The notes below the pieces were generated by a model. It searched no databases. It was given only the letters and a program-made list of their open reading frames with translations, and was not told the DNA's origin. Below, piece after piece: positions 20,477 to 37,085 of a DNA stretch of 64,000 nt; positions within the stretch are counted from its first letter, which is position 1; the number at the start of each line of letters is the position of its first letter. The stretch comes from Iamia majanohamensis (lineage in GTDB: Bacteria > Actinomycetota > Acidimicrobiia > Acidimicrobiales > Iamiaceae). A program made the translations under genes and the position numbers. The stretch lies in contig NZ_CP116942.1 in assembly GCF_028532485.1 (NCBI RefSeq), positions 2,356,001-2,420,000 on the forward strand, written 5' to 3'.

Positions 20477-20584
20477 GGTGAGCCGTCCGGGGCCGCCGTG
20501 CATGGCGGGCGGTGACCCTGGTCACCTCGCGGGGCCCGGGAGGGGCGGCGAGCGAGGCCCCTCCGCCGGCGGTCCGGAGCCCCC

Positions 20585-21862
20585 TCAGGCACGGGCAGGG
20601 GCGGGTGCGGCCTCGACCTCGGGGGGCACGACGGAGACGGCGGGACCGTCCCGGCGCAGGGCCTGGAGGGGCTTCTCCAGGAGGTACCAGCTGACGCTGG
20701 CGGCCAGGAGCCCGAGGCCGAAGGCGGCCGCCACCAGCACGAGGACCGGGACCTCCGCCGCGGGCCGGTCGAGCCACCCGGGCACCTGCTGGAGGATGTC
20801 GAGGTGCCACAGGTAGAGGCCGTAGGAGAGGGCACCGACCCACACGACGGTGCGGGACCGGAGTGCGGCGCGCACCAACCCCCGGTCCTGGTCGCCGAAC
20901 ACGGCGGGCACGAGGAGGCACACCGCCACCAGCCCGAAGGCGGCCTGGCGGACCTGCCAGTACCCGCCCTGGTACCCGCCGTTGAGGCTGGGCTCGCCCC
21001 ACCCGTAGGCGAACCCGAGCCAGACCCCGGCGGCGGCCACCCACCACAGGCCGGCGGGCTGGGCCACCCGGTCGCACCAGGCGCGCAGGCGCTCGTCGCG
21101 CCCGGCCCACACCGACAGCACGGCCAGCAGCATCCCCAGGCCGAAGAGGTCGAGGGTGTTGGGCAGCCAGGAGAACGACACCTCCCGCATGGTGACCTCG
21201 GCGCCGGCGTCGCTCACCGCCCAGACCCGGTCGACGCCCGACATGACCGCCCTCGACACGTAGGCGAGGGCGATCAGGCCCACCGCCCCGGCCGCCTCCA
21301 GGGCGAAGGTGGGCCGGCCCCGACCCAGCACCCGCCGCATGAGCACCGCCCAGAACGGCAGGAACAGGTAGAAGCTCATCTCGGTGTTGAGGCTCCAGGC
21401 CGGGACGATGCCGCCGAGGGTGGTGTAGGCGTCGTAGATCTGGAGGAACAGGTAGTACCGCCACGGCTCGGCGCCGAGCTCGACCCACCCGAGGGCCCAC
21501 AGCACCGACAGGGCGAACCAGTAGGCGGGCACGATGCGCAGCACCCGTCGCCACCAGAACCGGAGGGGCCCGATGGCGGGGCGCCCCTCGGCGGCGGCGG
21601 CCACGAAGGGGCGGTAGAGCAGGAAGCCGGAGATCACGAAGAACACCGACACCCCCATGTCCAGCACCGCCACCGGCGTGTAGGCGGTGCCGGCGGCGTC
21701 GCGGCCGACGAGGGTGACGGAGTGGTAGACGACGACGGCACCGGCGGCCAGGGCCCGGAGCCCCTCGAAGCAGGGGAAATACCGGCGCCGTGGGGCGGCG
21801 CGAGTACCCTCGGACCGGTCGGTCGGCAGTGTCGCCGGGATGTCCGCGGGACGGCTGGCCAT
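20585..21862 (-). CDS. acyltransferase-3 family membrane protein
   Basis: This 425-residue protein matches the OafA/YrhL-type acyltransferase-3 family. The opening FEGLRALAAGAVVVYHSV carries the conserved catalytic-type His, MGVSVFFVISGFLLYRPF follows, the Arg pair is in FWWRRVLRIVPAYW, and LSYGLYLWHLDIL lies near the C-terminus. Such enzymes acetylate or acylate exported sugars. Unlike the fused domain at 14430-17159, all landmark residues are present. ATG 21862 has TAGGGT ending 9 nt upstream. It is divergent from the mutase-like flavoprotein gene, which suggests a shared role in modifying surface glycans. Confidence 0.87.
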   Translation of the reverse strand: MASRPADIPATLPTDRSEGTRAAPRRRYFPCFEGLRALAAGAVVVYHSVTLVGRDAAGTAYTPVAVLDMGVSVFFVISGFLLYRPFVAAAAEGRPAIGPLRFWWRRVLRIVPAYWFALSVLWALGWVELGAEPWRYYLFLQIYDAYTTLGGIVPAWSLNTEMSFYLFLPFWAVLMRRVLGRGRPTFALEAAGAVGLIALAYVSRAVMSGVDRVWAVSDAGAEVTMREVSFSWLPNTLDLFGLGMLLAVLSVWAGRDERLRAWCDRVAQPAGLWWVAAAGVWLGFAYGWGEPSLNGGYQGGYWQVRQAAFGLVAVCLLVPAVFGDQDRGLVRAALRSRTVVWVGALSYGLYLWHLDILQQVPGWLDRPAAEVPVLVLVAAAFGLGLLAASVSWYLLEKPLQALRRDGPAVSVVPPEVEAAPAPARA

Positions 21863-21958: not shown

Positions 21959-23539
21959 ATGAGCGAGCAGAGCACCGCACCCGACAGCACCGAGCACGGC
22001 ACCCCCGGCGACGTCGGCGACGTCGTCGTGATCGGGGCCGGCCCCGCCGGGCTGACCGCGGCCTACCAGTTCCACAAGTACGGCGTGTCGTCCACGATCC
22101 TCGAGTCCGACCAGGTGGTCGGGGGCATCAGCCGCACCGCGGAGCGCGACGGGTGGCGCTTCGACATCGGCGGCCACCGCTTCTTCACCAAGGTCACCGA
22201 GGTCGAGGACCTCTGGCACGAGATCCTCCCCGACGAGGACTTCCTCCTGCGGCCCCGCAAGAGCCGCATCTTCTACGACGGCAAGTTCTTCGACTACCCG
22301 CTCAAGGCGTCCAACGCCCTGAAGAACCTGGGTCCCGTCGAGGCCGTGCGCTGCGTCGCCTCCTACGCCTGGGCCCGGATCCGGCCGCCCAAGGACCAGA
22401 CCAACTACGAGGGCTGGCTGGTGGCCCGCTTCGGCTGGCGCCTCTACCGCACCTTCTTCAAGACCTACACCGAGAAGGTGTGGGGCGTGCCGGTGAGCTC
22501 CATGCCCGCCGACTGGGCCGCCCAGCGCATCAAGGAGCTCTCGCTCGGCAAGGCCATCGTCAACGCCCTGCTGCCCAAGCGGAACCAGAAGGACATCGCC
22601 AGCCTCATCGAGGAGTTCCAGTACCCCAAGTACGGCCCCGGGATGATGTGGGAGGTCTGCCGCGACAAGGTCGAGGCCCAGGGCTCGACGGTCCACATGG
22701 GCCAGCGCGTCACCCGCATCCGCCACGCGGACGGCCTGGCCACCGAGGTCACCGCGGTCGACGCCGACGGCAACGAGACCACCCACCCCGCCGGCCACGT
22801 CATCTCCTCGATGCCCATCTCCCAGCTGCTCCAGGCGATGGACCCGCCGGTGCCCGACGAGGTGCGCCAGGCGGCCGACGACCTGTCCTTCCGCGACTTC
22901 CTGACGGTGGCCCTGGTGGTGCCGGGCGACGACGTGCCGTGGAGCGACAACTGGATCTACGTCCACGACCCGGCCGTCGAGGTGGGGCGCATCCAGAACT
23001 TCGGGTCCTGGTCGCCGTACCTGGTGAAGGAGGGCCGCAACGTCCTCGGCCTCGAGTACTTCGTCTTCGAGGGCGACCGCATGTGGACCTCCGCCGACGA
23101 GGACCTCGTCGAGCAGGGCAAGCGGGAGCTGGCCGCGCTCGACCTGGTGGAGCCGTCGCGGGTCGAGGGCGGCTACGTCGTCCGGATGCCGAAGGCGTAC
23201 CCGACCTACGACGAGCACTACCAGGCCAACGTGGGCGTCCTCCGCCGATGGCTGGAGCGCCACGCCCCCAACGTCCACCCGGTGGGCCGCAACGGGATGT
23301 TCCGGTACAACAACCAGGACCACTCCATGTTCACGGCCATGCTGACGGTCGAGAACATCACCACCGGGGCCGGCCACGACATCTGGGAGGTCAACGTGGA
23401 GGAGGAGTACCACGAGACCCTCTCGGAGACCTCCACCTCCCGCTCCTCGTCGCCCAAGGGCACCGGCCGCGACGCCCCGGTGATCGCCCGGGCCGACACC
23501 GACAAGGTCCGCGCCGAGCGGGGCGTCCCCGGCGCCTGA
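21959..23539 (+). CDS. FAD-dependent oxidoreductase, UDP-galactopyranose-mutase-like
   Basis: This 526-residue flavoprotein has the Rossmann dinucleotide motif VVVIGAGPAGLTAAYQF near residues 21-37 and the flavin segment DQVVGGISRTAERDG. The characteristic block FDIGGHRFFTKVTEVEDLWHEIL follows. Proteins with this block are found beside glycosyltransferases and are annotated as UGM-like or amine-oxidase-like; the true reaction is often unproven. ATG 21959 follows GAGAGAGG. A Ser/Thr-rich tail of about 45 residues extends past the usual C-terminus. In this cluster it might isomerise a sugar nucleotide to a furanose form. Confidence 0.8.
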   Translation: MSEQSTAPDSTEHGTPGDVGDVVVIGAGPAGLTAAYQFHKYGVSSTILESDQVVGGISRTAERDGWRFDIGGHRFFTKVTEVEDLWHEILPDEDFLLRPRKSRIFYDGKFFDYPLKASNALKNLGPVEAVRCVASYAWARIRPPKDQTNYEGWLVARFGWRLYRTFFKTYTEKVWGVPVSSMPADWAAQRIKELSLGKAIVNALLPKRNQKDIASLIEEFQYPKYGPGMMWEVCRDKVEAQGSTVHMGQRVTRIRHADGLATEVTAVDADGNETTHPAGHVISSMPISQLLQAMDPPVPDEVRQAADDLSFRDFLTVALVVPGDDVPWSDNWIYVHDPAVEVGRIQNFGSWSPYLVKEGRNVLGLEYFVFEGDRMWTSADEDLVEQGKRELAALDLVEPSRVEGGYVVRMPKAYPTYDEHYQANVGVLRRWLERHAPNVHPVGRNGMFRYNNQDHSMFTAMLTVENITTGAGHDIWEVNVEEEYHETLSETSTSRSSSPKGTGRDAPVIARADTDKVRAERGVPGA

Positions 23540-23608: not shown

Positions 23609-24967
23609 TCAGTCGCCCTCGCGGGCGGCTGGCCCGGACCAGGTCACCAGGGCGGCGGCGCCCACCGCCAGCAAGGGCACGATCGGCACCTTGAACCGGG
23701 AGTCGGCGAAGGTGACCAGCGGCGCGGCCAGCACCGCCAGGGTGGCCAGCGGCAGCAGCAGCTGCTCGCCCCGGCGGCTCCAGGCCAGCCGGACCAGGCC
23801 CACCGCGCCCAAGGCGCCCACGAGGAACCAGGACCAGTCGAACAGCCGGGCCTTGGCCTCGTAGTCGTCGCCGATGGCCCACGGGTCGGCCCCGTAGGAC
23901 TGCACCGCCCGCAGGGCGTCGTCGTCGCGCTCGACCAGGATCCGGAACCGGTCCACGACCAGGCCGGGCTCGTCGGCCAGCCCCTCGCGGAGGAACCGCA
24001 GCCCCCGGCTCGTCTTCTCGTCGTTCGCCTCCACCTCGGCCGCGGGCCCGTCCTGCACGCCGGTGCCGGTGTCGCACTCGGGCGGGGCCCCGAAGCCGCC
24101 CGAAGCACCCGGGGCGTGGCCGATGCAGAGGTTGTCGCCGGTGTTGGTCGACAGGGGGACGAAGGCGTCCATGCGCACCACGTTGCGCACCGTCCAGGGG
24201 GCCAGGCACAGCAACCCGACCCCGACGACGAGGGCGGTGCGCAGGGCGGTGCGGCGCAGCCCCTCCCCCGCCACCAGCCAGGCCACCACCGCGGCGCCGA
24301 CGACGCCGGCGGCCACCGGCCGCACGAGCAGCAGGGCGCCGAGCAGCAGCCCGGCGACCACCATGCGGCGTCGGTCGAGGGCACCGGGCCAGCGGCCGTG
24401 GCCGGGGGGCACGAGGGCCACGAGGAACCCGAGCAGCACCGCGATGCTCAGGGTCTCGCTGAGCAGGACCGCGGTGTGCAGCACCAGGTTGGGGTAGACG
24501 GCGACGACGGCTGCGGCCACGACCCCTGCGGCGGGCGACGCCAGCCGCCGCCCGAGGAGGCCGGTGAGCACCACCCCGAGCACCCCGAGGACCACCTGGG
24601 CCAGCCCGCCGACCAGGGCCAGGTCGTCGGTGAGGGGCGTGTGGCGCAGCACGGTGTCGATGCCGCCGAGGAAGTAGGGGTAGCCCGGCGGGAAGTAGGC
24701 CGTGGGCTGGCCGGTCAGCGGCTCCACCAGGCCGTCGCCGGCGGCGATGCCGTGGGCGTAGCCGGCGTAGCGGGCCGGGTCGAACAGGCCCTGGGGCGTC
24801 CGGGCCGCGTAGACGACGGCGGCGACCCGCAGCACCGCGCCGACACCCGCAGCCACGGCGATGCCGGCCAGGCCCCGGTCGTCGCGCACCCGCCGGGCGG
24901 CGGCCCGGGCCCGGGTCGGGAGGGGGGGTGCCGTCCCGGCCGGCGCCGCGCCCGGGGAGTCGGTCAC
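23609..24967 (-). CDS. GT-C (ArnT/PMT-like) membrane glycosyltransferase
   Basis: This 452-residue protein starts with a Pro/Arg-rich cytoplasmic stretch. A first helix follows and then the catalytic-loop pattern GLFDPARYAGYAHGIAAGDG near residue 60, with TAYFPPGYPYFLGGI after it. The helices continue to about residue 290. An outer loop contains two Cys, in NLCIGHAPG and PPECDTG, which may form a disulfide. GTG 24967 overlaps the upstream TGA by 4 nt, so it is translated with the polyprenyl-phosphate sugar synthase gene that precedes it. That pairing suggests its donor is the product of that enzyme. Confidence 0.78.
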   Translation of the reverse strand: MTDSPGAAPAGTAPPLPTRARAAARRVRDDRGLAGIAVAAGVGAVLRVAAVVYAARTPQGLFDPARYAGYAHGIAAGDGLVEPLTGQPTAYFPPGYPYFLGGIDTVLRHTPLTDDLALVGGLAQVVLGVLGVVLTGLLGRRLASPAAGVVAAAVVAVYPNLVLHTAVLLSETLSIAVLLGFLVALVPPGHGRWPGALDRRRMVVAGLLLGALLLVRPVAAGVVGAAVVAWLVAGEGLRRTALRTALVVGVGLLCLAPWTVRNVVRMDAFVPLSTNTGDNLCIGHAPGASGGFGAPPECDTGTGVQDGPAAEVEANDEKTSRGLRFLREGLADEPGLVVDRFRILVERDDDALRAVQSYGADPWAIGDDYEAKARLFDWSWFLVGALGAVGLVRLAWSRRGEQLLLPLATLAVLAAPLVTFADSRFKVPIVPLLAVGAAALVTWSGPAAREGD

Positions 24968-25707
24968 GAGCGGGCCGCCCGGGCCCGCCGGGCACCGGGC
25001 CGCACCGCCTCGCGCAGCCCCCACCACGTGACCCGCAGCATCGACTCGACGATGATCTGCCCCGACATCTTGGACGTGCCCCGCACCCGGTCCCGGAACA
25101 CGATCGGCACCTCGGCCACGGTCCCTCCGGCGGAGGCGATGCGGAACGCGAGCTCGGTCATGAAGGCGTAGCCGTTGGCCCGGGTCGTGTCGTAGCCGAT
25201 GGCCTCGAGCACCGAGGCCCGGTAGGCCCGGAACCCCGAGGTGGCGTCGCTGAGGGCCAGGCCCAGGACCCAGCACGTGTACCGGTTCCCGTACCGGGAC
25301 AGCACCTGGCGGTGCAGCGGCCAGTTCGGCGTGCTCCCCCCCGGGACGTAGCGGGACCCGGCGACCAGGTCGGCCCCCTCCTCGATGCGGGCGAGCAGCT
25401 CGGGGATCACCGCCGGGTCGTGGGAGGAGTCGGCGTCCAGGGTGACCAGCACGTCGAAGCCGAGGGCGATGGCGTGGGCGAACCCGGCCCGGTAGGCGTT
25501 GCCCAGGCCGTCCTTGCCCGCCCGTCGCAGCACGTCGACCTGGCCCAGCTCCTCGCCCACCGCCTCGGCCACCTCCGCGGTGCCGTCGGGGCTGGCGTCG
25601 TCGATGACCAGCACCGATGCGGCGGGCACCGCCTCCCGGACGGCCCGCACGATGCGCTCCACGTTCTCCACCTCGTCGTAGGTGGGGACGAGGACCATCG
25701 TGCGCAT
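24964..25707 (-). CDS. GT2 polyprenol-phosphate mannosyltransferase-like enzyme (Ppm1/DPM type)
   Basis: This 247-residue GT-A enzyme has VPTYDEVENVERIV at the start, VLVIDDASPDGTAEVAE, the metal-binding VTLDADSSHDP near residue 93, and SGFRAYRASVLEAIGY. The last matches Ppm1 and dolichyl-phosphate mannose synthases, which load mannose from GDP-mannose onto polyprenyl phosphate at the inner membrane face. There is no C-terminal membrane domain. ATG 25707 is chosen over GTG 25719 because a TAGTGT -10 hexamer (25716-25721) covers the latter and ends 8 nt before the former. Confidence 0.85.
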   Translation of the reverse strand: MRTMVLVPTYDEVENVERIVRAVREAVPAASVLVIDDASPDGTAEVAEAVGEELGQVDVLRRAGKDGLGNAYRAGFAHAIALGFDVLVTLDADSSHDPAVIPELLARIEEGADLVAGSRYVPGGSTPNWPLHRQVLSRYGNRYTCWVLGLALSDATSGFRAYRASVLEAIGYDTTRANGYAFMTELAFRIASAGGTVAEVPIVFRDRVRGTSKMSGQIIVESMLRVTWWGLREAVRPGARRARAARS

Positions 25708-25813: not shown

Positions 25814-27865
25814 ATGTCCGGGACCGTCGACATCAGCGCGGACCCCGAGGCGCCCGGCGAGCAGCCCCCGCAGGAGGGACTGGTCGGTCCGCGCACCCGG
25901 TTGGTCCTGCTCGCCGCCCTCATGCTCTTCACCGAGCTGGCCCTCATCCGCTGGCTGGGGGCCGAGGTCTTCTACCTCAGCTACTTCTCCAACTTCGTCC
26001 TGCTCGGGAGCTTCCTCGGCATCGGGCTCGGGTTCATCTGGGCCGGGAGGGGGCGACGCCCGCTCTACCCCTTCGCACCGCTGCTCCTCGGCGTGCTCGT
26101 CCTCTACGTGTACCTGTTCCCGGTGCCCCTGGAGGTCCGCACCGAGGGCCTCATCTTCTTCGACACCATCGAGCCGCAGAGCGCCATCCCCCGCGAGCTG
26201 GTGCTGGTCATCCTGTTCGTGGCGGTGGCCGCGGTGCTGGCCGCCATCGGCGACGGGGTGGCCCGGGCGTTCGGGGTGTTCGAGCCCCTCCAGGCCTACA
26301 AGCTGGACCTGATCGGCAGCGTGGCCGGCATCGCCGGCTTCACCGTCCTGTCGTTCCTGGGCGCCCGGCCCATCGTGTGGGGCGTCGTGATCGCGGTGAT
26401 CGTGGTCGCCACCATCGCCCCCCGCCCCACGTGGAAGCCGGTGATCGCCGGGGTCGGCCTCCTCGCCGTCCTGGCGCCCTTCGCGGTCGAGGCGACCCAG
26501 GACGACGTGGTGTGGTCGCCGTACTACCGCATCCAGTACGAGGAGAACGCCGACGGGGGCATCAACACCACGGTGAACCAGAGCCCCCACTGGACCCAGA
26601 TCCCCACCGAGGACAACGCCCTCTACGAGTTCGTGTACCAGAACATCGCCGAGCCCGAGGGCGGCGACACCCTGGTCATCGGGGCCGGGTCCGGCAACGA
26701 CGTGGCCTCCGCCCTCCGGCGGGGCGCCACCCACGTCGACGCGGTCGAGATCGACCAGCGCCTCGTCGACCTGGCCCGGGACAACCACCCGGACCAGCCC
26801 TGGAGCGACCCCCGGGTCGACGTCCACGTCGACGACGGCCGCGCCTTCCTCGAGCGGTCCGACGAGGAGTGGGACAAGATCCTGCTGGCCCTCCCCGACT
26901 CGCTCACCCTCGTGCAGGGGGCGTCGTCGGTCCGGCTGGAGTCCTACCTCTTCACCGAGGAGGCGGCCCGCACCGCCCGCGACCGCCTGGCCCCCGGCGG
27001 CGTCTTCGCCATGTACAACTTCTACCGCGAGGACTGGCTGGTCGACCGCTACGCCAACACCCTGGAGCAGGCCTTCGGGACGCCCCCCTGCGTCACCAAG
27101 ATCGGCGACTTCAACCTGTCGGTGCTCATCGCATCCGAGGACCCCGAGGCCATCGACTGCCCGGCGGGCTCGGTGTGGGCGGGGGCCGAGGCCACCTCGG
27201 CCCCGGCGCCGGCCTCCGACGACCACCCCTTCCCGTACCTGCGGGAGCCGAGCATCCCCCGCCTCTACGTCATCTCCGCGGCGCTGATGATCGCCTTCTC
27301 CCTCGCCGCGGTGCGCCTCGTGGGCGGTCCCCTCCGCGGCATGCGCGCCTTCGCCGACCTCTTCGCCATGGGCGTGGCCTTCCTCCTGCTCGAGACCAAG
27401 GGGGTGGTGGGCTTCGCGCTCTTCTTCGGCACGACCTGGCTGGTCAACGCCCTGGTGTTCATCGGCATCCTCAGCTCGGTCCTGCTGTCGGTGGCCGTGT
27501 CGCGACGGGTCACCTTCAAGCACCCGGCGCGGCTCTACATCGTGCTGCTGGCCGCGCTGGCCCTCGCCTACGTCGTCCCGCCGGCCACGCTGCTCGACCT
27601 CCCCGTGGTGCCACGCTTCCTCGCCGCCGTCACCCTGGCCTTCTTCCCCGTCTTCACGGCCAACATCATCTTCACCCAGCGCTTCAAGGCCACGAGCCAC
27701 TCGATGACCGCGTTCGGGGCCAACCTCGTCGGGGCCATGGTCGGTGGCGTGCTCGAGTACTCGGCGCTCTACCTCGGCTACCGCAACCTCCTGATCGTGG
27801 TGGCCCTGGCCTACGGCGCCGCCCTCCTCCTCGGGCGCAAGCAGCTCACCGTCGCCCCGGCATGA
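25814..27865 (+). CDS. membrane protein with internal spermidine-synthase-like SAM domain
   Basis: In this 683-residue protein, residues about 25-215 form an N-terminal membrane bundle. Residues about 230-470 form a soluble Rossmann domain with the SAM-binding segment TLVIGAGSGNDVASALRRGA near 285, the acidic VDAVEIDQRLVDLA, and DVHVDDGRAFL. Residues about 485-675 form a second membrane bundle. The middle resembles the spermidine-synthase-like fold, but the aminopropyltransfer substrate residues cannot be confirmed. Related membrane proteins are usually of unknown function. The stop overlaps the next GT-C-like gene (ATGA), so it may act on the same glycan or lipid. Confidence 0.75.
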   Translation: MSGTVDISADPEAPGEQPPQEGLVGPRTRLVLLAALMLFTELALIRWLGAEVFYLSYFSNFVLLGSFLGIGLGFIWAGRGRRPLYPFAPLLLGVLVLYVYLFPVPLEVRTEGLIFFDTIEPQSAIPRELVLVILFVAVAAVLAAIGDGVARAFGVFEPLQAYKLDLIGSVAGIAGFTVLSFLGARPIVWGVVIAVIVVATIAPRPTWKPVIAGVGLLAVLAPFAVEATQDDVVWSPYYRIQYEENADGGINTTVNQSPHWTQIPTEDNALYEFVYQNIAEPEGGDTLVIGAGSGNDVASALRRGATHVDAVEIDQRLVDLARDNHPDQPWSDPRVDVHVDDGRAFLERSDEEWDKILLALPDSLTLVQGASSVRLESYLFTEEAARTARDRLAPGGVFAMYNFYREDWLVDRYANTLEQAFGTPPCVTKIGDFNLSVLIASEDPEAIDCPAGSVWAGAEATSAPAPASDDHPFPYLREPSIPRLYVISAALMIAFSLAAVRLVGGPLRGMRAFADLFAMGVAFLLLETKGVVGFALFFGTTWLVNALVFIGILSSVLLSVAVSRRVTFKHPARLYIVLLAALALAYVVPPATLLDLPVVPRFLAAVTLAFFPVFTANIIFTQRFKATSHSMTAFGANLVGAMVGGVLEYSALYLGYRNLLIVVALAYGAALLLGRKQLTVAPA

Positions 27866-29709
27866 CCGAGGCGGCGACGGCGCGGGCCGAGGCGGCCCCG
27901 GCCGCCTCCGAGGCCACCGCCGCCACCTGGCGCGACGCGCTGCGGACCCGCCCCGTCGACGCCCTGTGGTGGCTCCCCCTCGGGGCCGCGGTCGCGGTGC
28001 TCGGCCTGGGCCTGGCCATCCTCGCCCAGCACACCTGGTACCCGGTCGGCGACTTCGGCCAGGCGAACATGCGGATGCTCTCGTTCTGGTCGCACCCGCC
28101 GCTGGTGGGCCCGGCGGGCCGGATCATCGGGGAGGGCGGCGTCCAGGGCAGCCACCCGGGACCGGCCATCTTCTGGGCGGCCTGGCCGCTCTGGCGCCTC
28201 CTCGGCGGGTCGTCCTGGGCGCTCAACGCCTCGGTGGCCGCCACCAACCTGGCCGGCATGGCGGTGGCCGTGGCCTGCGCCCGGCGGCTGGGCGGGCGTC
28301 GGGTCGCGGCGGGCGTCGGGGTGGTGACCCTGGCGACCCTCGCCGGGTTCGGCCCCGAGGTGATGCTCCAGCCCTGGAACCCGTCGATGGCCCTGACCTG
28401 GTACCTGGTGCTGGTCGTGGCCACCTGGGGCGTGGTGCTCGGCCACCGCGGCATGCTCCCGGTCGCCGCCGGGGCCGCGTCCTACGTGGTGCAGTGCCAC
28501 GCCGGCTACGCCCCCCCGGCGCTGCTGCTCTGCGCCGTCGCCGGCGGGGCCGCGCTCTGGGCCGCGTGGCGCGCCCGCGCCGACGGGGGCATCACCCGGC
28601 TCCTGCCGTGGCTGGCCGCCACCGCGGCCACCGCTGGGGTCCTGTGGGCCCCTCCCCTCGTCGACCAGCTCACCAACGAGCCCGGCAACATCTCCATCCT
28701 CCTCTACTCCTTCAGCCACCCCGACGGGGACTACGTCGGCCTCGGACGGGCCCTCCAGGTGCTCCTCCTCCAGCTCGACCCCACCGGCGGGCCCATCCGG
28801 GGCGCCGAGTGGATGGACGGCCCGCCCGTCCTCGGCGCGGTCCTGGTCCTGGCCTGGGTCGGCACCGGCGTGTGGGCCCGGCGCCGGCTGGGGCGCACCT
28901 GGCAGGCCCTCGACCTGGTCCTGGCCGTCTCCCTGCTCGGCTCCTGGTTCGCCATCAGCCGGATCTTCGGGGCGCCGTTCGTCTACCTCTACAAGTGGAC
29001 CTGGATCCTCGCCGCCCTCGTGGTGCTCGCCACCGCGGCCCACCTGCTGGCCGCCCTCCGGGACCGCACCGGTGACGGGGGCCGCCGGCTGGTGGCCGTC
29101 GGGCTGGCCGCCGGGCTGGTCATCGGGGTGGTGGCCGGAGGGCTCCGCTACGGCCGCACCGAGGTCTCGGGCCTGGTCTTCTCCGACACCATGGCCGCCC
29201 TGATCGGCCCCACCGAGGCCGCCCTCGACCCCGACGCCGACTACCTGGTCCGCTGGCAGGACCCGGCCGGGCTGGGCGGCGTGGGCTTCGGCATGGTCCT
29301 CGAGCTCGAGCGTCGAGGCTTCGACGTCGGCGTCGACGAGCAGTACTCGGCCGCGGCCGAGCCCCACCGGGTGCGCGACGAGGCCGACGCCGACGCCGTC
29401 ATCTGGGTCATGTCGGGCGAGACGGCCATCACCCGGGCCACCGAGATGCCCGGCGCCGAGGTGGTGGCCACCGCCGACCCCCGGACGCCGGCCGAGCGGG
29501 CCCGCTACGACGAGCTGGCCGAGCGGGCCGCCTCCCGCCTCGAGGAGGTGGGCCTGGCCGCCGAGGGCGAGTCGGTGCGGACCGGCGGGAACCTGCTCGG
29601 CATCCTGCTGGCCAACCCGGACCTGCCCGACGACATCGTCACCGACATCACCGACATGATCGTGCTGTTCCTGCCCACCGAGGTGATCGTCACCCCGCCG
29701 GCGGCCTGA
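27862..29709 (+). CDS. GT-C-like membrane protein with soluble C-terminal domain
   Basis: This 615-residue protein has a first helix at about residues 36-52, then an outer loop WYPVGDFGQANMRMLSFW near 58-75 in which the Asp of GDFG could be the GT-C catalytic acid. GVQGSHPGPAIFWAAWPLW follows, with about ten helices to residue 430. The C-terminal 180 residues are soluble and acidic, rich in Asp, Glu and Ala. ATG 27862 overlaps the preceding stop as ATGA. It may be a glycosyltransferase or a related lipid-linked-sugar protein. No donor can be assigned. Confidence 0.65.
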   Translation: MTEAATARAEAAPAASEATAATWRDALRTRPVDALWWLPLGAAVAVLGLGLAILAQHTWYPVGDFGQANMRMLSFWSHPPLVGPAGRIIGEGGVQGSHPGPAIFWAAWPLWRLLGGSSWALNASVAATNLAGMAVAVACARRLGGRRVAAGVGVVTLATLAGFGPEVMLQPWNPSMALTWYLVLVVATWGVVLGHRGMLPVAAGAASYVVQCHAGYAPPALLLCAVAGGAALWAAWRARADGGITRLLPWLAATAATAGVLWAPPLVDQLTNEPGNISILLYSFSHPDGDYVGLGRALQVLLLQLDPTGGPIRGAEWMDGPPVLGAVLVLAWVGTGVWARRRLGRTWQALDLVLAVSLLGSWFAISRIFGAPFVYLYKWTWILAALVVLATAAHLLAALRDRTGDGGRRLVAVGLAAGLVIGVVAGGLRYGRTEVSGLVFSDTMAALIGPTEAALDPDADYLVRWQDPAGLGGVGFGMVLELERRGFDVGVDEQYSAAAEPHRVRDEADADAVIWVMSGETAITRATEMPGAEVVATADPRTPAERARYDELAERAASRLEEVGLAAEGESVRTGGNLLGILLANPDLPDDIVTDITDMIVLFLPTEVIVTPPAA

Positions 29710-29754: not shown

Positions 29755-30468
29755 TCAGCGCCGGGAGCGCCGCCGTCGGCCCAGCCGGATGCGCAGCAGG
29801 ATCCAGAGGGCCTCGACGCCGTCGGTCCACTCGATCTTCTTGCCCTCCTCGCGGCCCCGGGCCCGGTAGGAGATGGGCACCTCGAAGATGCGCTCGCCCC
29901 GGGCCAGCAGCTTGCCGGTGACCTCGGCCTCGATGCCGAAGCCCGAGCTGCGGATGTCGACCTCGCGCCACATGGCCGTGGGCGCCAGCTTGAGGCACGT
30001 CTCCACGTCGGTGAGCCAGGCGTCGAAGAGCATGCTGGCCCAGACCGCGACCAGCTTGTTCCCGAGCACGAACCAGAAGGAGTAGGCGGCGTGGCCCCCG
30101 TAGGAGCGGGCGCCGTAGACGACCTTGGCCTCGCCGTCGAGCACCGGCTGGCACAGGGTGGGGATGTCGCGGGGGTCGTACTCGAGGTCGGCGTCGAGGA
30201 TGGTCAGCAGGTCGCCACGGGCCTCGGCGAAGCCCCGCACCAGGGCCCGGCCCTTGCCCTGGTTGGGCTCCTGGCGGACGAGGCGGACCCGCTCGCCGTC
30301 GACGAGGTCGGCGACCAGGTCCGTGCAGCCGTCGGAGGACCCGTCGTCGACGACGACGACCTCGGTGGGCAGCGGCATCTCCACCGCCAGCAGGCGCTCG
30401 AGGGCGGTCCGGAGGGTCGCGGCCTCGTTGTACACGGGCATCACGATGGAGAGCTTCTGGTGCGACAC
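29755..30468 (-). CDS. GT2 glycosyltransferase, dolichyl-phosphate mannose synthase-like
   Basis: This 237-residue GT-A enzyme has IVMPVYNEAATLRTALERLL, VVVVDDGSSDGCTD, NQGKGRALVRGFAEARGD, and the DXD-bearing TILDADLEYDPRDIPTL near residue 90. The tail is very basic (RIRLGRRRRSRR), which may touch the membrane. It belongs with polyprenyl-phosphate glycosyltransferases that build lipid-linked sugars. GTG 30468 is the only start near the fold boundary. It lies 17 nt downstream of the methyltransferase gene on the same strand and is likely cotranscribed with it. Confidence 0.84.
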   Translation of the reverse strand: MSHQKLSIVMPVYNEAATLRTALERLLAVEMPLPTEVVVVDDGSSDGCTDLVADLVDGERVRLVRQEPNQGKGRALVRGFAEARGDLLTILDADLEYDPRDIPTLCQPVLDGEAKVVYGARSYGGHAAYSFWFVLGNKLVAVWASMLFDAWLTDVETCLKLAPTAMWREVDIRSSGFGIEAEVTGKLLARGERIFEVPISYRARGREEGKKIEWTDGVEALWILLRIRLGRRRRSRR

Positions 30469-30485: not shown

Positions 30486-31250
30486 TCAGTACGGCCAGGT
30501 GGAGGGGTCGTGGCCCAGCAGCCGGGTGAGGCGCCCCAGCCGGACGGTGATCAGCACCTTGATGAGGACGTTGCGGGCGAACCAGGGCAGCTCGAGGGCC
30601 TGGTGGACCGCGTTGGCCACCCGGGCCTTGGGCCCGAGGCGCTCCCGGCGGTACTCGGTCATGGACTCCGACCGGCCCACGTAGCGCCAGTGCCCCCCGA
30701 GGAACAGCTCGCGGAGGATGGCCAGGGTGACGCCGATGGAGCTGAAGGAGTCGTGGATGAGCAGGGTGCCGCCCTCGGTCACCCGTGCCCCCCAGTCGCG
30801 GATGTCGGCCCGGGCCGGTCCGTACCGGTGGGCGCCGTCGATGTAGAGCAGGTCGATGGGGTCGGGCACCTGGGCGTGGGCCGCGTCGGAGAACGCCCGG
30901 ACGTGGGTGACCCGGTCGCGGACGCCGGCCGCCTCCAGGTTGGCGTTGAACACCTCGTGGTCCTGGGCGGCCTCGTCGACGAAGCCCTCGATCTCCTGGG
31001 GGCCCCGGTCGTTGCCTGCGTGGGGGTCGATGGCGACCAGCTCGACCCCGGGCGCCGCGGCCCGGCCCAGGACCACCGTGGAGCGGCCCCGGAAGCTGCC
31101 GATCTCGACGATGCGGCCGCCGTCGGGCACGGCCCTGGCCCCGTCCCAGAGCAGCCGGGCCTGGCCGTCGGTCATCCAGCCCTCGACGTCGGCGACGTCG
31201 GCCAGGGTGGCCGCGAAGTCGGGGGCGGTCGGGGGGCCGGAGGGGGTCAT
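30486..31250 (-). CDS. class I SAM-dependent methyltransferase (Methyltransf_24 type)
   Basis: This 254-residue enzyme shows SAM motif I in RIVEIGSFRGRSTVVLGRAA, the acidic AIDPHAGND, and DLLYIDGAHRYGPARADIRDWG with TLLIHDSFSSIG. This pattern is typical of the Methyltransf_24 group found with glycosyltransferases. The C-terminus, REL..GGHWRYVGRSESMTEYRRERLG onward, is basic. ATG 31250 is chosen because the frame upstream is not protein-like. A role in O-methylating a surface sugar is inferred from the neighbours only. Confidence 0.8.
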   Translation of the reverse strand: MTPSGPPTAPDFAATLADVADVEGWMTDGQARLLWDGARAVPDGGRIVEIGSFRGRSTVVLGRAAAPGVELVAIDPHAGNDRGPQEIEGFVDEAAQDHEVFNANLEAAGVRDRVTHVRAFSDAAHAQVPDPIDLLYIDGAHRYGPARADIRDWGARVTEGGTLLIHDSFSSIGVTLAILRELFLGGHWRYVGRSESMTEYRRERLGPKARVANAVHQALELPWFARNVLIKVLITVRLGRLTRLLGHDPSTWPY

Positions 31251-31414: not shown

Positions 31415-32623
31415 TTGACCACCCCTCCCCCGCCTCCCGCCGTCCCCGGACCGCCGCCGAAGATGGGCGACATCGCCGCCGCGGCCGGCCTCCAACGGGT
31501 GCACCTCATCGCCTGGCGCGACCTCGACGACGTCGAGGCCGGCGGCTCCGAGGTGCACGCCGCCACCGTGGCCCGCCTCTGGGCCGAGGCCGGCCTCGAC
31601 GTCCTTATGCGCACGTCGTGGGCCCAGGGCCACCCCAACCACGGCCGGCGCGACGGCTACGAGGTGGTACGCAAGGCCGGTCGCTACCAGGTGTTCCCGC
31701 GCACCGCCCTGGCCGAGGTGCGCAAGACCTACGGCCGCCCCGACGGCCTGGTCGAGATCTGGAACGGCATGCCGTTCTTCTCCCCCCTGTGGGCCACCGT
31801 GCCCCGGGTCGTCGTCCTCCACCACGTCCACGCCGACATGTGGAAGATGGTGCTGCCGCCCAACCTGGCCCGGGTGGGCGACACCGTCGAGCGGCGCGTC
31901 GCCCCGCTCATCTACCGGCGCAGCCGCATGATCACCCTCTCGCCGTCCTCCAAGGAGGAGATGGTCGAGCTGGGCTTCCGGCCCGAGCGCATCGACGTGG
32001 TCCCGCCCGGCATCGACCCCCGGTTCACCCCCGGCGGCACCCTCGCGGCGCGACCCCTCGTCGTGGGCGCCGGGCGGCTGGCCCCGGTGAAGCGCTTCGA
32101 CCGGCTCATCCGCGCCGCCGCCGAGGCCCGCCGCACCACCCCGGACCTGGAGCTGGTCATCGCCGGCACCGGCCCGCTCAAGGGGGAGCTGGAGGAGCTC
32201 ATCGCCGGCCTCGACGCCCAGGAGTGGGTGACCCTGGTCGGACGGGTGAGCGACGAGGAGCTGCTCGACCTCTACCGGCGGGCCTGGGTCATCGCCTCCT
32301 CCTCGGTCCGCGAGGGGTGGAACATGACCCTCACCGAGGCGGCCGCCTGCGGCACCCCGGCGGTGGCCACCCGCATCGCCGGCCACGTCGACGCGGTGGC
32401 CGACGGCCAGGGCGGCCTGCTGGCCGACGACGACGCCGAGCTGGCCGCCCACCTGGCCGCGGTGACCTCAGACCCCGACCTGCGGGCCCGGCTGTCCGCC
32501 GGCGCCCGCGCCCACGTGGCCCGCTTCACCTGGGAGGCCACGGCCCGGTCGATCCTCACCGCCCTGGCCGAGGAGGCCGAGCGCTGGCGGGACCGGCCCT
32601 GGCGGGCCTGGCGCCGAGGGTGA
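31415..32623 (+). CDS. GT4-family glycosyltransferase (GT-B fold)
   Basis: This 402-residue enzyme has an N-terminal acceptor domain opening VHLIAWRDLDDVEAGGSEVHAATVARLW. The nucleotide-sugar domain contains PLVVGAGRLAPVKRFDRLIRAAA, LELVIAGTGPLKGELEELI, and the E-x7-E block SVREGWNMTLTEAAACGTPAVATRIAG. These are standard GT4 landmarks. TTG 31415 gives a Pro-rich lead of 16 residues before ATG 31463, which is an equally possible start (386 residues). The AftD-like gene follows after 28 nt, so they form an operon. The sugar is not predictable. Confidence 0.85.
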   Translation: MTTPPPPPAVPGPPPKMGDIAAAAGLQRVHLIAWRDLDDVEAGGSEVHAATVARLWAEAGLDVLMRTSWAQGHPNHGRRDGYEVVRKAGRYQVFPRTALAEVRKTYGRPDGLVEIWNGMPFFSPLWATVPRVVVLHHVHADMWKMVLPPNLARVGDTVERRVAPLIYRRSRMITLSPSSKEEMVELGFRPERIDVVPPGIDPRFTPGGTLAARPLVVGAGRLAPVKRFDRLIRAAAEARRTTPDLELVIAGTGPLKGELEELIAGLDAQEWVTLVGRVSDEELLDLYRRAWVIASSSVREGWNMTLTEAAACGTPAVATRIAGHVDAVADGQGGLLADDDAELAAHLAAVTSDPDLRARLSAGARAHVARFTWEATARSILTALAEEAERWRDRPWRAWRRG

Positions 32624-32651: not shown

Positions 32652-35600
32652 GTGAGCGCGACCACGACGGCCCCGCCGGCCCCGTCGCGCCGCGACGCCC
32701 TGCGGCCCTGGGCGCCGGTCGGCCTGCTCGCCGCGGTCTGCTACGTCCCGCTGCTGCTGACCCACCGGGAGATGGTGGGGGCCGACACCAAGTCCTACCT
32801 CTACCTCGACCCGGGCCGCCTGCTCGGCCGGGCCTGGTCGATGTGGGACCCCAACGTGGGCCTGGGCACCGTGCCCCACCAGAACATCGGCTACCTGTGG
32901 CCCATGGGGCCCTTCTACTGGGCCGCCGAGACCCTCGGGCTGCCGGACTGGCTGGCCCAGCGCCTGTGGCTGGGCTCGATCCTCTTCCTCGCCGGGCTCG
33001 GGGTGCGCTACCTGCTGCGCACCCTGGGGCAGTCGGGGCCGGGGGTGACCGCGGCCATGTTCCTCTACGCCCTGTCGCCCTACGTGCTCACCCTGGGCGC
33101 CCGGATCTCGGCCCTGCTGCTGCCGTTCACGGCCCTGGGGTGGATGCTCGGCCTCACCATCCGCGCCACCCGGGAGCGGTCGTGGGTCCACCCCGCCCTG
33201 TTCGCCCTGGCCGTGCCCACCTTCGGGTCGACCAACGCCACCGCCCTGGTGCTCGTGGGCATCGCCCCCGCCCTCTGGATCCCCTACGCCACCTTCGTGC
33301 TGCGGGAGATCCGCCTGCGGGCCGCCCTGGCCGTCACCGCCCGCATCGGCGTGCTCACCATCGGCGCCTCGCTGTGGTGGATCGTCGGCCTCTGGGCCCA
33401 GGGGAGCTTCGGCATCGACGTCCTGCGCTACACCGAGACGGCCAAGACCGTCGCCGACGCCTCCTCCGCGCCCGAGCTGCTCCGCGGCCTGGGCTACTGG
33501 TACTTCTACGGCGACGACAAGCTCGGCGCCTGGATCGAGCCGTCGGTCGCCTACACCCAGAACCCCGGCCTCATCGTCCTGACCTACGCGGTGCCGGTGG
33601 TCGGCCTGCTGAGCGCGGCGGTGGTGCGCTGGCGCTACCGCTCCTTCTTCGCCGCCCTGGCGGTGGTGGGCCTGGTGGTCTCGGTCGGGGCCCACCCGTG
33701 GGACGACCCCTCCCCCCTCGGCGAGGGCTTCAAGGCCTTCCTCCAGTCCCAGGCCGGCCTGGCCATGCGCAGCCTGCCCCGCGCCGTGCCCCTCGTGAGC
33801 CTGGCCCTCGCCGTGCTCACCGGCGCGGCGGTGACGGCCCTCGGCGAGCGCCTCCGGCGCCTCGAGCGGCCCGCGGCCGGGGCCATCGTGGTGCTGGCGA
33901 TCCTCGCCCTCCCGCCCCTGTGGCGGGGCCAGATGGTGGCCGACAACCTCCAGCGCGACGAGCAGGTCCCGGCGTACTGGACCGAGGCCGCGGCCGAGAT
34001 CGACGCCCGGGGCCAGCTGCCCGCCGGCGGCTACGGGTCGCGCGTGCTGGAGGTGCCCGGCTCGGACTTCGCGTCCTACCGGTGGGGCGACACCGTCGAC
34101 CCCATCACCCCCGGCCTGACCGACCGTCCCTACGTGGCCCGGGAGCTGATCCCCTACGGCACGCCCCCGTCGGCCGACCTGCTGAACGCGCTCGACCGCC
34201 AGATGCAGGAGGACCTCCTCGACCCCGACGCCATCACCCCGGTCGCCCGGCTGATGGGCGTCGGCGACGTCGTGCTGCGGGGCGACCTGGCCTACGAGCG
34301 CTACAACCTGGTCCGGCCCCGCCAGGTCTACGAGCTGCTCCGCGAGGCCCCCGGCCTGGGCCCGGTCACCGGCTTCGGCGGCGACGAGCCGAACGTCCCC
34401 GACCCCCGCCTCCCCCTGCAGGACGAGATCGAGCTGGGCGCCGACCCCGACCTGCCCGACCCGCCCAAGGTCGGCCTCTTCACCGTGGAGGGCGACCCGT
34501 CGATCGTCGTGGCCAAGCCCACCTCGGACACGGTGCTGCTGTCGGGCTCGGCCGACGGGATCATCGCCGCCGCCGCGGCCGGGCTGATCGACGGCGACGA
34601 GCTCATCCGCTACACCGCCTCCTTCGCGGCCGACGGCGGCGGGGGCGACGATGCCCTGGTCGAGGCCGCCTCCGGCGACGCCCCCCTGGTGATCACCGAC
34701 ACCAACCGCAAGGCGGGCCAGCGCTGGGGCGTCGTCCACGAGACCGAGGGCCAGACCGAGGGGGCCGGGGAGGACCCCCTCGAGCCCGACCCGAGCGACA
34801 ACCGCCTGCCGATCTTCCCGGGCGCCGGCACCGACACCCAGACCGTCGCCGTCGACCGCGGCGGGGTGACGGTCCGGGCCAGCAGCTACGGCAACTCCAT
34901 CAGCTACACCCCCGAGGACCGGGCGCCCCAGGCCCTCGACGACGACCTCCGCACCTCCTGGACCGTCGGCGCCTTCTCGCCCGTCGCCGGCGAGCGCCTC
35001 GAGATCACCTACGACGAACCCCGCACCACCGACTCGGTGCGTCTCCTGCAGGCCCGCAACGGGGTGCAGAACCGCTGGATCACCAGCGTCCGCCTGCGGT
35101 TCGACGGCGGCGACCCCGTCGAGCTCGACCTCACGGAGGCGTCCCGCGACGGCGAGGGCCAGTGGCTCGAGTTCCCCGAGCGCACCTTCTCCACCCTCGA
35201 CGTCGAGATCACCGGCACCGACGTCGGTCGGCGCGACTCCTACGACGGGCTGAGCGCGGTCGGCCTCGCCGACGTCCGCCTCGGCGACGGCGACCTCCGG
35301 CTGGAGGAGTCGATCCGGCCCCCGACCGACGCCCTCGACGCGCTCGGCCCCGCGGCCACCGACCACCCCCTCGCCCTGGTCCTCACCCGGCGCCGGGCCC
35401 GGGCCACCGCCGCCCTGCGCTCCGACGAGGAGAACACCATGGTGCGCGACCTCGACCTCCCCGAGGCGCGCGACTTCGGGGTGGAGGGCACCGGGCGCAT
35501 CGCCCCGACCGTCTCCGACGCCCTCCTCGACGTGCTGCTGGGCCGTCCCGGGGCGGGCGCGGGGGGCGTCACCCCGTCGTCCTCGCGCCGTCTCCCCGGC

Positions 35601-37085
35601 GACCTCACCGCGGGCGCCGCGGCCGCCGTCGACGGCGACCCGGCCACCCACTGGAGCCCCGGCTTCCTCGGCCAGGACGGCGAGTGGACCTCCTACGACC
35701 TGGCCGCCCCGACCACCTTCGACCACCTGGACCTGCGGGTCGTGGCCGACGGGCGCCACTCGGTGCCGACCCGGCTCCGCATCGAGGCCGACGGCGAGGA
35801 GGCCGTCGTCGTCGACGTGCCCGCGGTGGAGGACCGGGCCGAGCGCGACGCGACCGTCGAGGTGCCCATCGACCTGCCCGAGCCGGTCACCGGCAGCTCC
35901 CTCCGCATCACCGTGGAGGACACCCGGGAGGTCCTCACCAACGACTGGCTCTCCCGGACGCCCGTGGTGATGCCCGTCGGCATCACCGAGTGGGGCATCG
36001 ACGGCCTCTCGGTGCCGGCCGCCCCCGCGACCGTCGACACCGGCTGCCGGGACGACCTGGTGGCGGTCGACGGCGAGGCCGTCCCCGCCCGACTCGTCGG
36101 CCGCACGGAGGTGGCGCTGGCGGGCGGACCGCTCGACCTCGAGGGCTGCGCCCCGACCACGGTGCCGGCCGGGCCCTCGCAGCTGCGCACCGGCGACGGT
36201 CGCGAGCTCGGCATCCAGGTCGACTCCCTGACCCTCCGCTCCGACGCCGGCGGGGCCGCCCACGAGGACGGCGGCCTGCTGCTGCCCGACGCCACCAGCG
36301 TGCCCACCCGGGTGACCAGCCAGGAGCGGTGGCGCTCGACCGTGGAGGTCGGCCCCCGCGAGGAGGACACCTGGCTGGTCATCGGCCAGAGCGACAACGA
36401 GGGGTGGACGGCCTCGATCGACGGCGAGGACCTGGGCCCGCCGGTGCTGGTCGACGGCTACTCCTCCGCCTTCCTCGTGCCCGCCGGCTCCGAGCCGGTC
36501 ACCGTGGACGTGGCCTGGGCCCCCCAGCGGGTCGTCCTGGCCGGGCTGGCGGCCTCCGTGCTCGCCGTGCTCGCCTGCCTCCTGCTCGCCCTGCGCCCGT
36601 GGCGCTGGCGGCGTCGGCGCGAGGCCGACCCCGCCGCCGGTCCCCCCGACGAGCGTCCGCTGCCCCTCGCCCTCGGGCCCGTGCTGCGCTCCGCCGGGAC
36701 CTCGCCGTCGTGGCCGACGACCGCGGCCACCGCGGTGGCCGCCGCCGTCGTCGGCCTGCTGGCGGTCAACGTCCCGGCCGGCGTGCTGCTCGGGCTGGCG
36801 GCGCTGGTGGGCCTGCGGGCCCGACGGGCCCGGCCCCTCCTCGCCTTCGGCCCCGCCCTGCTCCTGGTGGCCGCGGCCGCCTACATCGACCTGCAGCAGG
36901 TGCGCTACGGGCTGCCCCCGGGCTTCCAGTGGCCCCAGCGCTTCGGGCTGGCCCACGGCCTGGCCTACACCGGCGTGCTCCTGCTGGGCCTGGACCTGGT
37001 CGTGGGCCGCCTGCGCACCGGCCGCTGGTGGCCCCGCCGCGACGACGAGGAGCCCGTCGCCCCCGCCCCCTCCCCCCGCGGCTGA
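32652..37085 (+). CDS. AftD-like alpha-(1->3)-arabinofuranosyltransferase (DUF3367, GT-C)
   Basis: This 1477-residue protein matches mycobacterial AftD in length. A GT-C catalytic loop (MVGADTKSYLYLDPGRLL, Asp45) follows the first helix, and LGTVPHQNIGYLWPMGPFYW precedes the N-terminal membrane helices. Outer regions of discoidin/carbohydrate-binding type lie near residues 742-890 and 980-1110 (AAVDGDPATHWSPGFL is typical). A final membrane bundle spans about 1295-1460. Mycobacterial AftD adds branching arabinofuranose to arabinan from decaprenyl-phosphoryl arabinose; whether this organism makes arabinan is unknown. GTG 32652 starts the protein; no Shine-Dalgarno is visible. Confidence 0.85.
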   Translation: MSATTTAPPAPSRRDALRPWAPVGLLAAVCYVPLLLTHREMVGADTKSYLYLDPGRLLGRAWSMWDPNVGLGTVPHQNIGYLWPMGPFYWAAETLGLPDWLAQRLWLGSILFLAGLGVRYLLRTLGQSGPGVTAAMFLYALSPYVLTLGARISALLLPFTALGWMLGLTIRATRERSWVHPALFALAVPTFGSTNATALVLVGIAPALWIPYATFVLREIRLRAALAVTARIGVLTIGASLWWIVGLWAQGSFGIDVLRYTETAKTVADASSAPELLRGLGYWYFYGDDKLGAWIEPSVAYTQNPGLIVLTYAVPVVGLLSAAVVRWRYRSFFAALAVVGLVVSVGAHPWDDPSPLGEGFKAFLQSQAGLAMRSLPRAVPLVSLALAVLTGAAVTALGERLRRLERPAAGAIVVLAILALPPLWRGQMVADNLQRDEQVPAYWTEAAAEIDARGQLPAGGYGSRVLEVPGSDFASYRWGDTVDPITPGLTDRPYVARELIPYGTPPSADLLNALDRQMQEDLLDPDAITPVARLMGVGDVVLRGDLAYERYNLVRPRQVYELLREAPGLGPVTGFGGDEPNVPDPRLPLQDEIELGADPDLPDPPKVGLFTVEGDPSIVVAKPTSDTVLLSGSADGIIAAAAAGLIDGDELIRYTASFAADGGGGDDALVEAASGDAPLVITDTNRKAGQRWGVVHETEGQTEGAGEDPLEPDPSDNRLPIFPGAGTDTQTVAVDRGGVTVRASSYGNSISYTPEDRAPQALDDDLRTSWTVGAFSPVAGERLEITYDEPRTTDSVRLLQARNGVQNRWITSVRLRFDGGDPVELDLTEASRDGEGQWLEFPERTFSTLDVEITGTDVGRRDSYDGLSAVGLADVRLGDGDLRLEESIRPPTDALDALGPAATDHPLALVLTRRRARATAALRSDEENTMVRDLDLPEARDFGVEGTGRIAPTVSDALLDVLLGRPGAGAGGVTPSSSRRLPGDLTAGAAAAVDGDPATHWSPGFLGQDGEWTSYDLAAPTTFDHLDLRVVADGRHSVPTRLRIEADGEEAVVVDVPAVEDRAERDATVEVPIDLPEPVTGSSLRITVEDTREVLTNDWLSRTPVVMPVGITEWGIDGLSVPAAPATVDTGCRDDLVAVDGEAVPARLVGRTEVALAGGPLDLEGCAPTTVPAGPSQLRTGDGRELGIQVDSLTLRSDAGGAAHEDGGLLLPDATSVPTRVTSQERWRSTVEVGPREEDTWLVIGQSDNEGWTASIDGEDLGPPVLVDGYSSAFLVPAGSEPVTVDVAWAPQRVVLAGLAASVLAVLACLLLALRPWRWRRRREADPAAGPPDERPLPLALGPVLRSAGTSPSWPTTAATAVAAAVVGLLAVNVPAGVLLGLAALVGLRARRARPLLAFGPALLLVAAAAYIDLQQVRYGLPPGFQWPQRFGLAHGLAYTGVLLLGLDLVVGRLRTGRWWPRRDDEEPVAPAPSPRG

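Follow-up and report, generated by a model that had tools for sequence, protein, structure and literature searches.

What would a full-length AftD-like arabinofuranosyltransferase do in a bacterium with no mycolate genes nearby? The question arose from an initial annotation of 64,000 nucleotides of Iamia majanohamensis (contig NZ_CP116942.1, positions 2,356,001 to 2,420,000; here called the window), which singled out the open frame at 32652-37085. Our analysis suggests that its product, designated AftD1, is a polyprenyl-phosphate-dependent furanosyltransferase, most likely a D-arabinosyltransferase that decorates a galactofuranose-containing glycan. We give this reading a probability of roughly 55%. 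The observations behind it are the homology of AftD1, its conserved Asp, the presence of genes for the decaprenyl-phosphoryl-D-arabinofuranose (DPA) pathway, the active-site residues of a mutase, and the gene neighborhood.

Sequence comparison identifies AftD1 as a real, full-length homologue of AftD. It is encoded by a single open frame on the plus strand that begins with GTG and yields 1,477 residues. The frame has a coding score of 684, the second highest in the window behind 46759-51354 (780); gene limits and start codons were taken from a simple codon-usage finder made for this analysis. In Pfam, residues 35 to 707 matched PF11847 GT-C_AftD (331 bits against a cut-off of 26), residues 985 to 1090 matched F5/8 type C (50.9 against 28.2), and residues 982 to 1114 scored just over the cut-off for CBM_AftD (28.5 against 27). 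A weaker discoidin-like stretch at residues 778 to 868 stayed below its cut-off (DUF7402, 25.3 against 27). With phmmer, residues 26 to 1332 were collinear with residues 43 to 1325 of the Mycobacterium abscessus AftD chain 6wbx (E 3.5e-35), and the second AftD structure, 6w98, matched at E 5.3e-35; identity to the AftD comparison proteins was 23 to 29%. Foldseek placed three AftD entries at the top of the PDB matches for an AlphaFold2 model of residues 1 to 720 (mean pLDDT 73), with E values from 3e-18 to 6e-14, followed by oligosaccharyltransferase (2e-6), AftA (3e-4), and AftB (1e-2). In the phmmer alignment, Asp45 pairs with the D of the D-T-K motif of the AftD chain, and it was found without exception in alignments of 19 and 29 sequences, AftD1 counted in. 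An Asp at the GT-C catalytic place is described in PMC12041299 as essential for catalysis in all GT-CA enzymes, and the equivalent Asp of AftB is proposed there as the nucleophile. The C-terminal bundle consists of four hydrophobic segments between residues 1294 and 1451. The AftD-like length, catalytic Asp45, discoidin-like domains, and C-terminal membrane bundle that the initial annotation had described were therefore all recovered.

The genome harboring the window is a single contig of 4,576,919 bases and is 99.4% complete. Two neighboring genes at 2.76 Mb were first caught by UbiA and ALO profile searches. The operon there has its genes in the order DprE2, UbiA, DprE1, all in the same orientation, with one junction overlapping by 4 bases and the other separated by 16, and NCBIfam named the products accordingly. 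DprE1 (decaprenylphosphoryl-beta-D-ribose oxidase; 610 against 500), the UbiA synthase (decaprenyl-phosphate phosphoribosyltransferase; 365 against 207), and the DprE2 reductase (322 against 250) all scored above their equivalog cut-offs, which means that the genome carries the central genes of the DPA pathway. This rules out the absence of a DPA pathway, which the initial annotation had named, together with a wall free of arabinose, as the outcome that would speak for a different donor or role. The operon resembles the known pathway (Rv3806c, DprE1, DprE2) in all three components. It differs in that it stands in a genome without an Emb or AftA match and, in the family labeled f2, is clustered with AftD genes. 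Emb (PF04602), AftA (PF12250), and bacterial-type GLF (PF03275) had no match in this genome, whereas the Corynebacterium glutamicum control was positive for each. No Pks13 equivalog exceeded its cut-off in the genome, the best partial match reaching 289 bits against 2,100, and weak matches of this kind also occurred in 12 of 14 control genomes; the reported lack of mycolate genes thus holds as far as tested. Among the 14 window proteins scanned, none matched a Pfam model for AftB, AftC, GlfT1, or GlfT2, for which no dedicated genome search was made. AftD outside mycolate makers is not in itself unprecedented, since Amycolatopsis and its relatives combine arabinogalactan with a lack of mycolates.

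The mutase gene lies 9 kb upstream of AftD1, with other genes intervening. Its product, the flavoprotein encoded at 21959-23539, is assigned to PRK07208 (807 bits against 389), a family labeled "hypothetical protein" for which no paper was found in the literature. By phmmer, its best PDB sequence match was the UDP-galactopyranose mutase (UGM) of Aspergillus fumigatus (AfUGM; E 1e-26), and the next was UGM 4dsg (E 4e-24), which we take to be from Trypanosoma cruzi. Short UGMs of about 390 residues, presumably bacterial, matched at 2e-8 and protoporphyrinogen oxidase at 9e-5. The bacterial GLF domain PF03275 was absent from its Pfam matches, which sets it apart from bacterial Glf. For the AlphaFold2 model (23 sequences, mean pLDDT 78), eukaryotic UGMs filled the first 34 Foldseek rows and protoporphyrinogen oxidases came after them; the best E value was 2.8e-29, with a TM-score of 0.84 by target length. 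Because UGM structures outrank protoporphyrinogen oxidase in both sequence and fold, identification as a protoporphyrinogen oxidase or carotenoid enzyme was rejected.

AfUGM contact residues listed in Table 3 of PMC3624792 were mapped onto the flavoprotein via a HMMER alignment. Thirteen substrate or flavin contacts (H63, Y104, F158, W167, R182, Y317, R327, Y419, R447, Y453, N457, Q458, and S461 in AfUGM numbering) were identical and were invariant across all 23 aligned sequences. They include the diphosphate binders R182, Y317, R327, Y419, and Y453, all five of which are kept as R190, Y334, R344, Y414, and Y450, and the flavin contact H63, the invariant H73 of the flavoprotein. V242, G61, and G62 were likewise identical and invariant in the 23 sequences, and S39 was identical in the window protein. 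The same identity and invariance applied to W315, a site that the table does not list. Quantum mechanics/molecular mechanics calculations on the T. cruzi enzyme, as reported in PMC4192007, assign catalytic roles to His62, Arg176, and Arg327, which were taken as equivalents of AfUGM H63, R182, and R327. On the strength of the UGM ranking in sequence and fold and of the conserved contact and catalytic residues, the flavoprotein is likely a nucleotide-sugar pyranose-furanose mutase, and its substrate sugar would be UDP-galactose. It shares the fold and these contacts with the eukaryotic enzymes, yet it is bacterial, 22 to 24% identical to them, and different at nine listed contacts.

The locus around AftD1 comprises the following genes, in order of position.

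12670..14349, minus strand: protein with nine transmembrane segments and no assigned family (nothing in Pfam at E 0.001); may or may not belong to the system
14430..17048, minus strand: PMT_2 GT-C-like membrane protein of 872 residues, match above cut-off (Pfam, transmembrane segments)
18818..20503, minus strand: PMT_2 GT-C-like membrane protein, match above cut-off (Pfam, transmembrane segments)
20585..21862, minus strand: Acyl_transf_3 (OafA-like) membrane acyltransferase; similar acyltransferases recur next to AftD genes
21959..23539, plus strand: PRK07208-family flavoprotein, homologue of eukaryotic UGM (active-site residues conserved)
23609..24889, minus strand: protein with eight transmembrane segments and a sub-threshold PMT_2 match, GT-C-like (Pfam, transmembrane segments)
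24964..25698, minus strand: GT2 protein resembling polyprenyl-phosphate-sugar synthases; a copy with 47 to 57% identity lies within the DPA-AftD cluster of four family-f2 genomes
27862..29709, plus strand: protein with eight transmembrane segments and no assigned family (nothing in Pfam at E 0.001); may or may not belong to the system
29755..30468, minus strand: second GT2 protein resembling polyprenyl-phosphate-sugar synthases (family matches)
30486..31250, minus strand: Methyltransf_24-type methyltransferase, divergent from the GT4 gene; copies with 57 to 64% identity lie near AftD or DPA genes in several relatives
31463..32623, plus strand: GT4 glycosyltransferase ending 28 bases upstream of AftD1; conserved AftD neighbor
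32652..37085, plus strand: AftD1, AftD-family GT-C glycosyltransferase of 1,477 residues (Pfam, phmmer, tree, fold)

The two lipid-sugar synthases and the mutase-like flavoprotein of the initial annotation correspond to the two GT2 proteins and the PRK07208-family protein. Its five GT-C-like proteins were recovered in part: PMT_2 was matched in three, and those at 12670 and 27862 can be described only as multispanning membrane proteins.

The arrangement next to AftD1 recurs in relatives. Thirty named loci were retrieved with six peptide patterns taken from the AftD1 sequence, which biases the neighborhoods described from them toward close relatives. In 26 of the 30, a same-strand homologue of the window GT4 precedes AftD by less than 200 bp. 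Among the remaining four, L037 (Nocardioidaceae) has the GT4 on the other strand, two have less than 600 bp upstream, and one has none in 2.5 kb. The mutase lies on the same strand 1.2 to 4.9 kb upstream of AftD in 22 of the 23 loci with at least 6 kb upstream, L037 again being the exception; L027, with 5.9 kb upstream, has no mutase. Eighteen further genomes of the class were chosen by hand (11 DprE1 negative and 7 positive). Within the AftD stretch examined, GT4 was present in all 18 and the mutase in 8. Because the 11 DprE1-negative genomes keep GT4, the pairing of AftD1 with GT4 is more constant than its link to the DPA genes.

The AftD family is widespread in the class Acidimicrobiia, occurring in 64 of 149 genomes. 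In a phylum sample of 396 genomes, which like the class sample held both draft and complete genomes, AftD was matched in 77 at E 0.001 and in 75 above cut-off. DprE1 exceeded the curated cut-off in 60 of the 149 class genomes and 430 bits in 63, and it was matched at E 0.001 in 135; since related oxidases match at E 0.001, one of the two stricter thresholds was used. Emb was above cut-off in 3 genomes (4 at E 0.001) and AftA was present in 5, all of family f29. AftD and DprE1 occurred together in 47 genomes, AftD only in 17, DprE1 only in 13, and neither in 72, giving an odds ratio of 15 (p 6e-13) by a genome-level statistic that ignores relatedness. Counting three near-cut-off DprE1 matches changed these numbers to 49, 15, 14, and 71. 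After collapsing to 40 families, the counts were 15, 9, 3, and 13, with an odds ratio of 7.2 (p 0.0097). We found no literature joining Acidimicrobiia with AftD or DprE1, in a search that covered few subscription papers; of the papers listed for Acidimicrobiia with arabinogalactan, none deals with this matter, judging by the listing. The passages of PMC6113628 examined for wall sugars of the class contained nothing on them.

Same-contig distances between AftD and DprE1 were computed in 15 genomes. They ranged from 3.7 to 25 kb in ten, all of family f2, and from 81 to 644 kb in the other five, which include the I. majanohamensis genome. These ten are among the 12 f2 genomes that have both genes; the other two carry them on separate contigs. 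In four f2 genomes, one cluster brings together DprE1, DprE2, GT4 (one partial), a GT2 protein (GT2a), and one or two AftD genes. The decaprenyl-phosphate phosphoribosyltransferase (DPPR synthase) gene is part of it in three of them, the contig of the fourth beginning inside the cluster, and the window-type methyltransferase in two. Beside the DPPR synthase gene of one family-f2 genome, L106:1436-2062 encodes a HAD-type phosphatase that might carry out the 5'-phosphatase step and is comparable to the HAD module of three-component pentofuranose systems. It should also be noted that the five genomes with AftA-family matches (L118 to L121 and G058) all have DprE1 above cut-off, four have AftD, and none has Emb.

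To place AftD1 among its homologues, a midpoint-rooted tree of the GT-C domain was calculated from 55 rows without an outgroup. It used 11 of the 30 named loci; 13 of the 30 loci from the phylum were left out (near-copies, family f63). A 33-row Acidimicrobiia-type clade was separated from a 22-row classical AftD clade with 100/100 support. The latter consists mostly of Mycobacteriales-type AftDs, a label derived from the AftD score together with MmpA and PgfA equivalogs, plus those of three class genomes (G012, G112, and G138). AftD1 falls in the 33-row clade together with AftD2, the product of a second AftD-family gene at 395.9 kb of its own genome (1,136 residues), in a different subclade. 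Orthology of AftD1 with Rv0236c was ruled out by its position outside the classical clade. Two rows of other titles, L010 (Thermoanaerobacterales) and L030 (Actinomyces), nest deep among Acidimicrobiia. L010, a Bacillota title, also has a GT4 and a methyltransferase that resemble Acidimicrobiia ones, and the nesting of its AftD suggests that it is probably a mislabeled metagenome bin. The classical-clade AftDs of G138, G112, and G012 (L048, L049, and L050) score 600 to 665 bits and occur besides class-type copies; that of G112 follows a GT2 and a GT4-methyltransferase fusion, its called frame being 2,572 residues long (L109:7688-15406).

Compared with AftD itself (Rv0236c/NCgl2757; M. abscessus PDB 6w98, 6wbx, and 6wby), AftD1 is alike in whole-length homology, in the GT-C domain with its conserved Asp, in discoidin-like carbohydrate-binding modules and the C-terminal transmembrane bundle, and in a wider locus that, as in a Mycobacteriales-type genome, contains GT4 and methyltransferase genes. 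It is unlike AftD in its separate clade and low identity, in the lack of Emb and AftA matches and of Pks13 above cut-off in its genome, and in having a direct GT4 neighbor and a mutase in the locus.

From these observations we infer donor, acceptor, linkage, and polymer as follows. The DPA operon, with its UbiA synthase, DprE1, and DprE2, would make a D-arabinofuranose (Araf) donor, most likely DPA. The eukaryotic-type mutase of the AftD1 locus would supply galactofuranose (Galf) as UDP-Galf, and the GT4 beside AftD1 would build the acceptor glycan inside the cell together with other cytoplasmic transferases. Outside the membrane, AftD1 would then add Araf to the envelope glycan, with Asp45 as the catalytic residue and the discoidin-like domains holding the glycan. 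The product may be an arabinogalactan-like or lipoglycan-like polymer, in whose assembly in I. majanohamensis neither Emb, AftA, nor bacterial-type Glf would take part.

A broader proposal for the class can be advanced only tentatively. Acidimicrobiia would possess an envelope polymer of D-Araf and Galf whose synthesis relies on a eukaryotic-type UGM and, for most DPA-dependent arabinosyl transfer, on one to three paralogues of AftD; Emb and AftA would mostly be absent. Such an Emb-free arabinogalactan would share ancestry with the mycobacterial form and might predate it. The assembly of arabinan and galactan is a tuberculosis drug target that has been studied mainly in mycolate-making bacteria, and the precise role of AftD in mycobacteria is called unclear in PMC8698533. 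An AftD lineage that is widespread in another class and stands beside a DPA operon without Emb or AftA would reveal which elements of the machinery are old and which task AftD performs by itself. It would also suggest that a eukaryotic-type mutase, overlooked by the bacterial Glf model, can supply galactofuranose in these bacteria.

Several observations weigh against assigning AftD1 to DPA-dependent arabinosylation. DprE1 is lacking in 15 to 17 of the 64 AftD-bearing genomes, and in families f7 (2 of 2) and f12 (3 of 3) all sampled genomes have AftD without it. The surroundings of AftD in the 11 DprE1-negative genomes keep GT4 in 11 and the mutase in 5; because the cassette of AftD and GT4, partly with the mutase, persists without DprE1, some lineages probably use a donor other than DPA. 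In I. majanohamensis, about 368 kb separate the DPA operon from AftD1. The linkage in family f2 could go back to one event; the four f2 cluster stretches showed no mutase, and Emb is matched above cut-off in one of these genomes (G099). Since the clade of AftD1 is separate from classical AftD, the donor may have shifted. In the vicinity of AftD1 are two GT2 proteins similar to polyprenyl-phosphate hexose synthases. Within the mutase, the substrate contacts F106, Q107, N163, and N207 of AfUGM are replaced by L115, K116, T171, and I217, and the flavin contacts T18, D38, L46, V64, and G456 also differ; the N207 column adjoins an alignment gap, and DrUGM likewise has T at the place of N163. Finally, whole-cell sugars listed in PMC12263773 for the Iamiaceae isolate Actinospongicola halichondriae, a strain not known to carry the AftD1-locus genes, are rhamnose, ribose, mannose, and galactose, with arabinose absent. 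The literature yielded no analysis of wall sugars for any strain in which AftD1 is known to occur.

The lineages without DprE1 and the cultured Iamiaceae member without arabinose make a different donor the main rival explanation. AftD1 would then be a pentofuranosyl- or hexosyltransferase using another polyprenyl-phosphate sugar, either ribofuranose taken directly from the UbiA product or a hexose from the two Dpm-like GT2 neighbors, and the DPA operon would serve other enzymes. The conserved pairing with GT4 in DprE1-free genomes, the position outside the classical clade, and the GT2 genes are all consistent with this. There is also a precedent: PMC11127046 describes three-component pentofuranose systems consisting of a polyprenyl-phosphate-ribose synthase, a flippase, and a GT136 enzyme of the GT-C type. 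They share with the AftD1 system a polyprenyl-phosphate pentofuranose donor and a GT-C enzyme acting outside the cytoplasm. They differ in that GT136 is a family distinct from AftD and that DprE1 and DprE2 are present here; no flippase was identified here, none having been searched for. The ribose of the cultured relative fits as well, although ribose also comes from RNA. Against a different donor stand the co-occurrence of AftD with DprE1, which exceeds chance even by family, and the physical clustering of the two in f2. We regard this explanation as possible and rather doubtful. As for the furanose-containing wall or lipoglycan unlike that of mycobacteria suggested by the initial annotation, it remains the best reading, with the DPA genes encoded; DPA is its probable donor, although some lineages keep the cassette without DprE1.

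A second alternative, that AftD1 works as an orthologue of classical AftD within a normal arabinogalactan pathway and that the searches overlooked Emb, AftA, and Glf, is improbable. Fold, length, and carbohydrate-binding domains are as in AftD; however, searches of a single-contig genome came back empty for all three while the control was positive, and AftD1 lies in a separate, fully supported clade, with three other class genomes carrying the classical-clade form. It is very improbable that AftD1 lacks catalytic activity and acts as a scaffold in the membrane or as a lipid-carrier protein. Such a role has been suggested for the AftD-like MmpA, which PMC8698533 describes as similar to the 668 N-terminal residues of AftD and as a possible membrane anchor. 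Against it, the Asp in the GT-C catalytic position shows no variation among the 29 aligned sequences, and AftD1 has no match to the NCBIfam MmpA model at E 0.001.

At the AftD2 locus (L009:9742-17165; approximately 395.7 to 403.2 kb), the genes after AftD2 encode a GT4-methyltransferase fusion and an MmpA-family protein. The MmpA-family protein scored 168 bits, under the cut-off of 210, at E 2.5e-49. Genes of the AftD family, GT4-like genes, and MmpA-family genes also stand together in G012, G058, and G112, with variations. In a Mycobacteriales-type control genome, the genes near AftD encode an acyltransferase, PgfA (331 against 160), MmpA (637 against 210), a GT4, and a methyltransferase. The AftD2 locus resembles the Mycobacteriales tmaT/mmpA/mtrP/aftD locus. 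A passage of PMC8698533 states that MmpA shares no homology outside corynebacteria and mycobacteria; the family matches at AftD2 and its kin, taken as homologues, say otherwise.

An Rfam scan of the window gave no match. In the middle of the glycan locus, 25814-27865 encodes a protein with 12 hydrophobic segments and a spermidine-synthase-like domain. Downstream of AftD1, a GGDEF-EAL protein (37235-38914) and a short protein (40283-40858; 72 to 74% identity in relatives) were each found near AftD in 6 of the 30 related loci, and a regulatory link of the two to AftD is possible.

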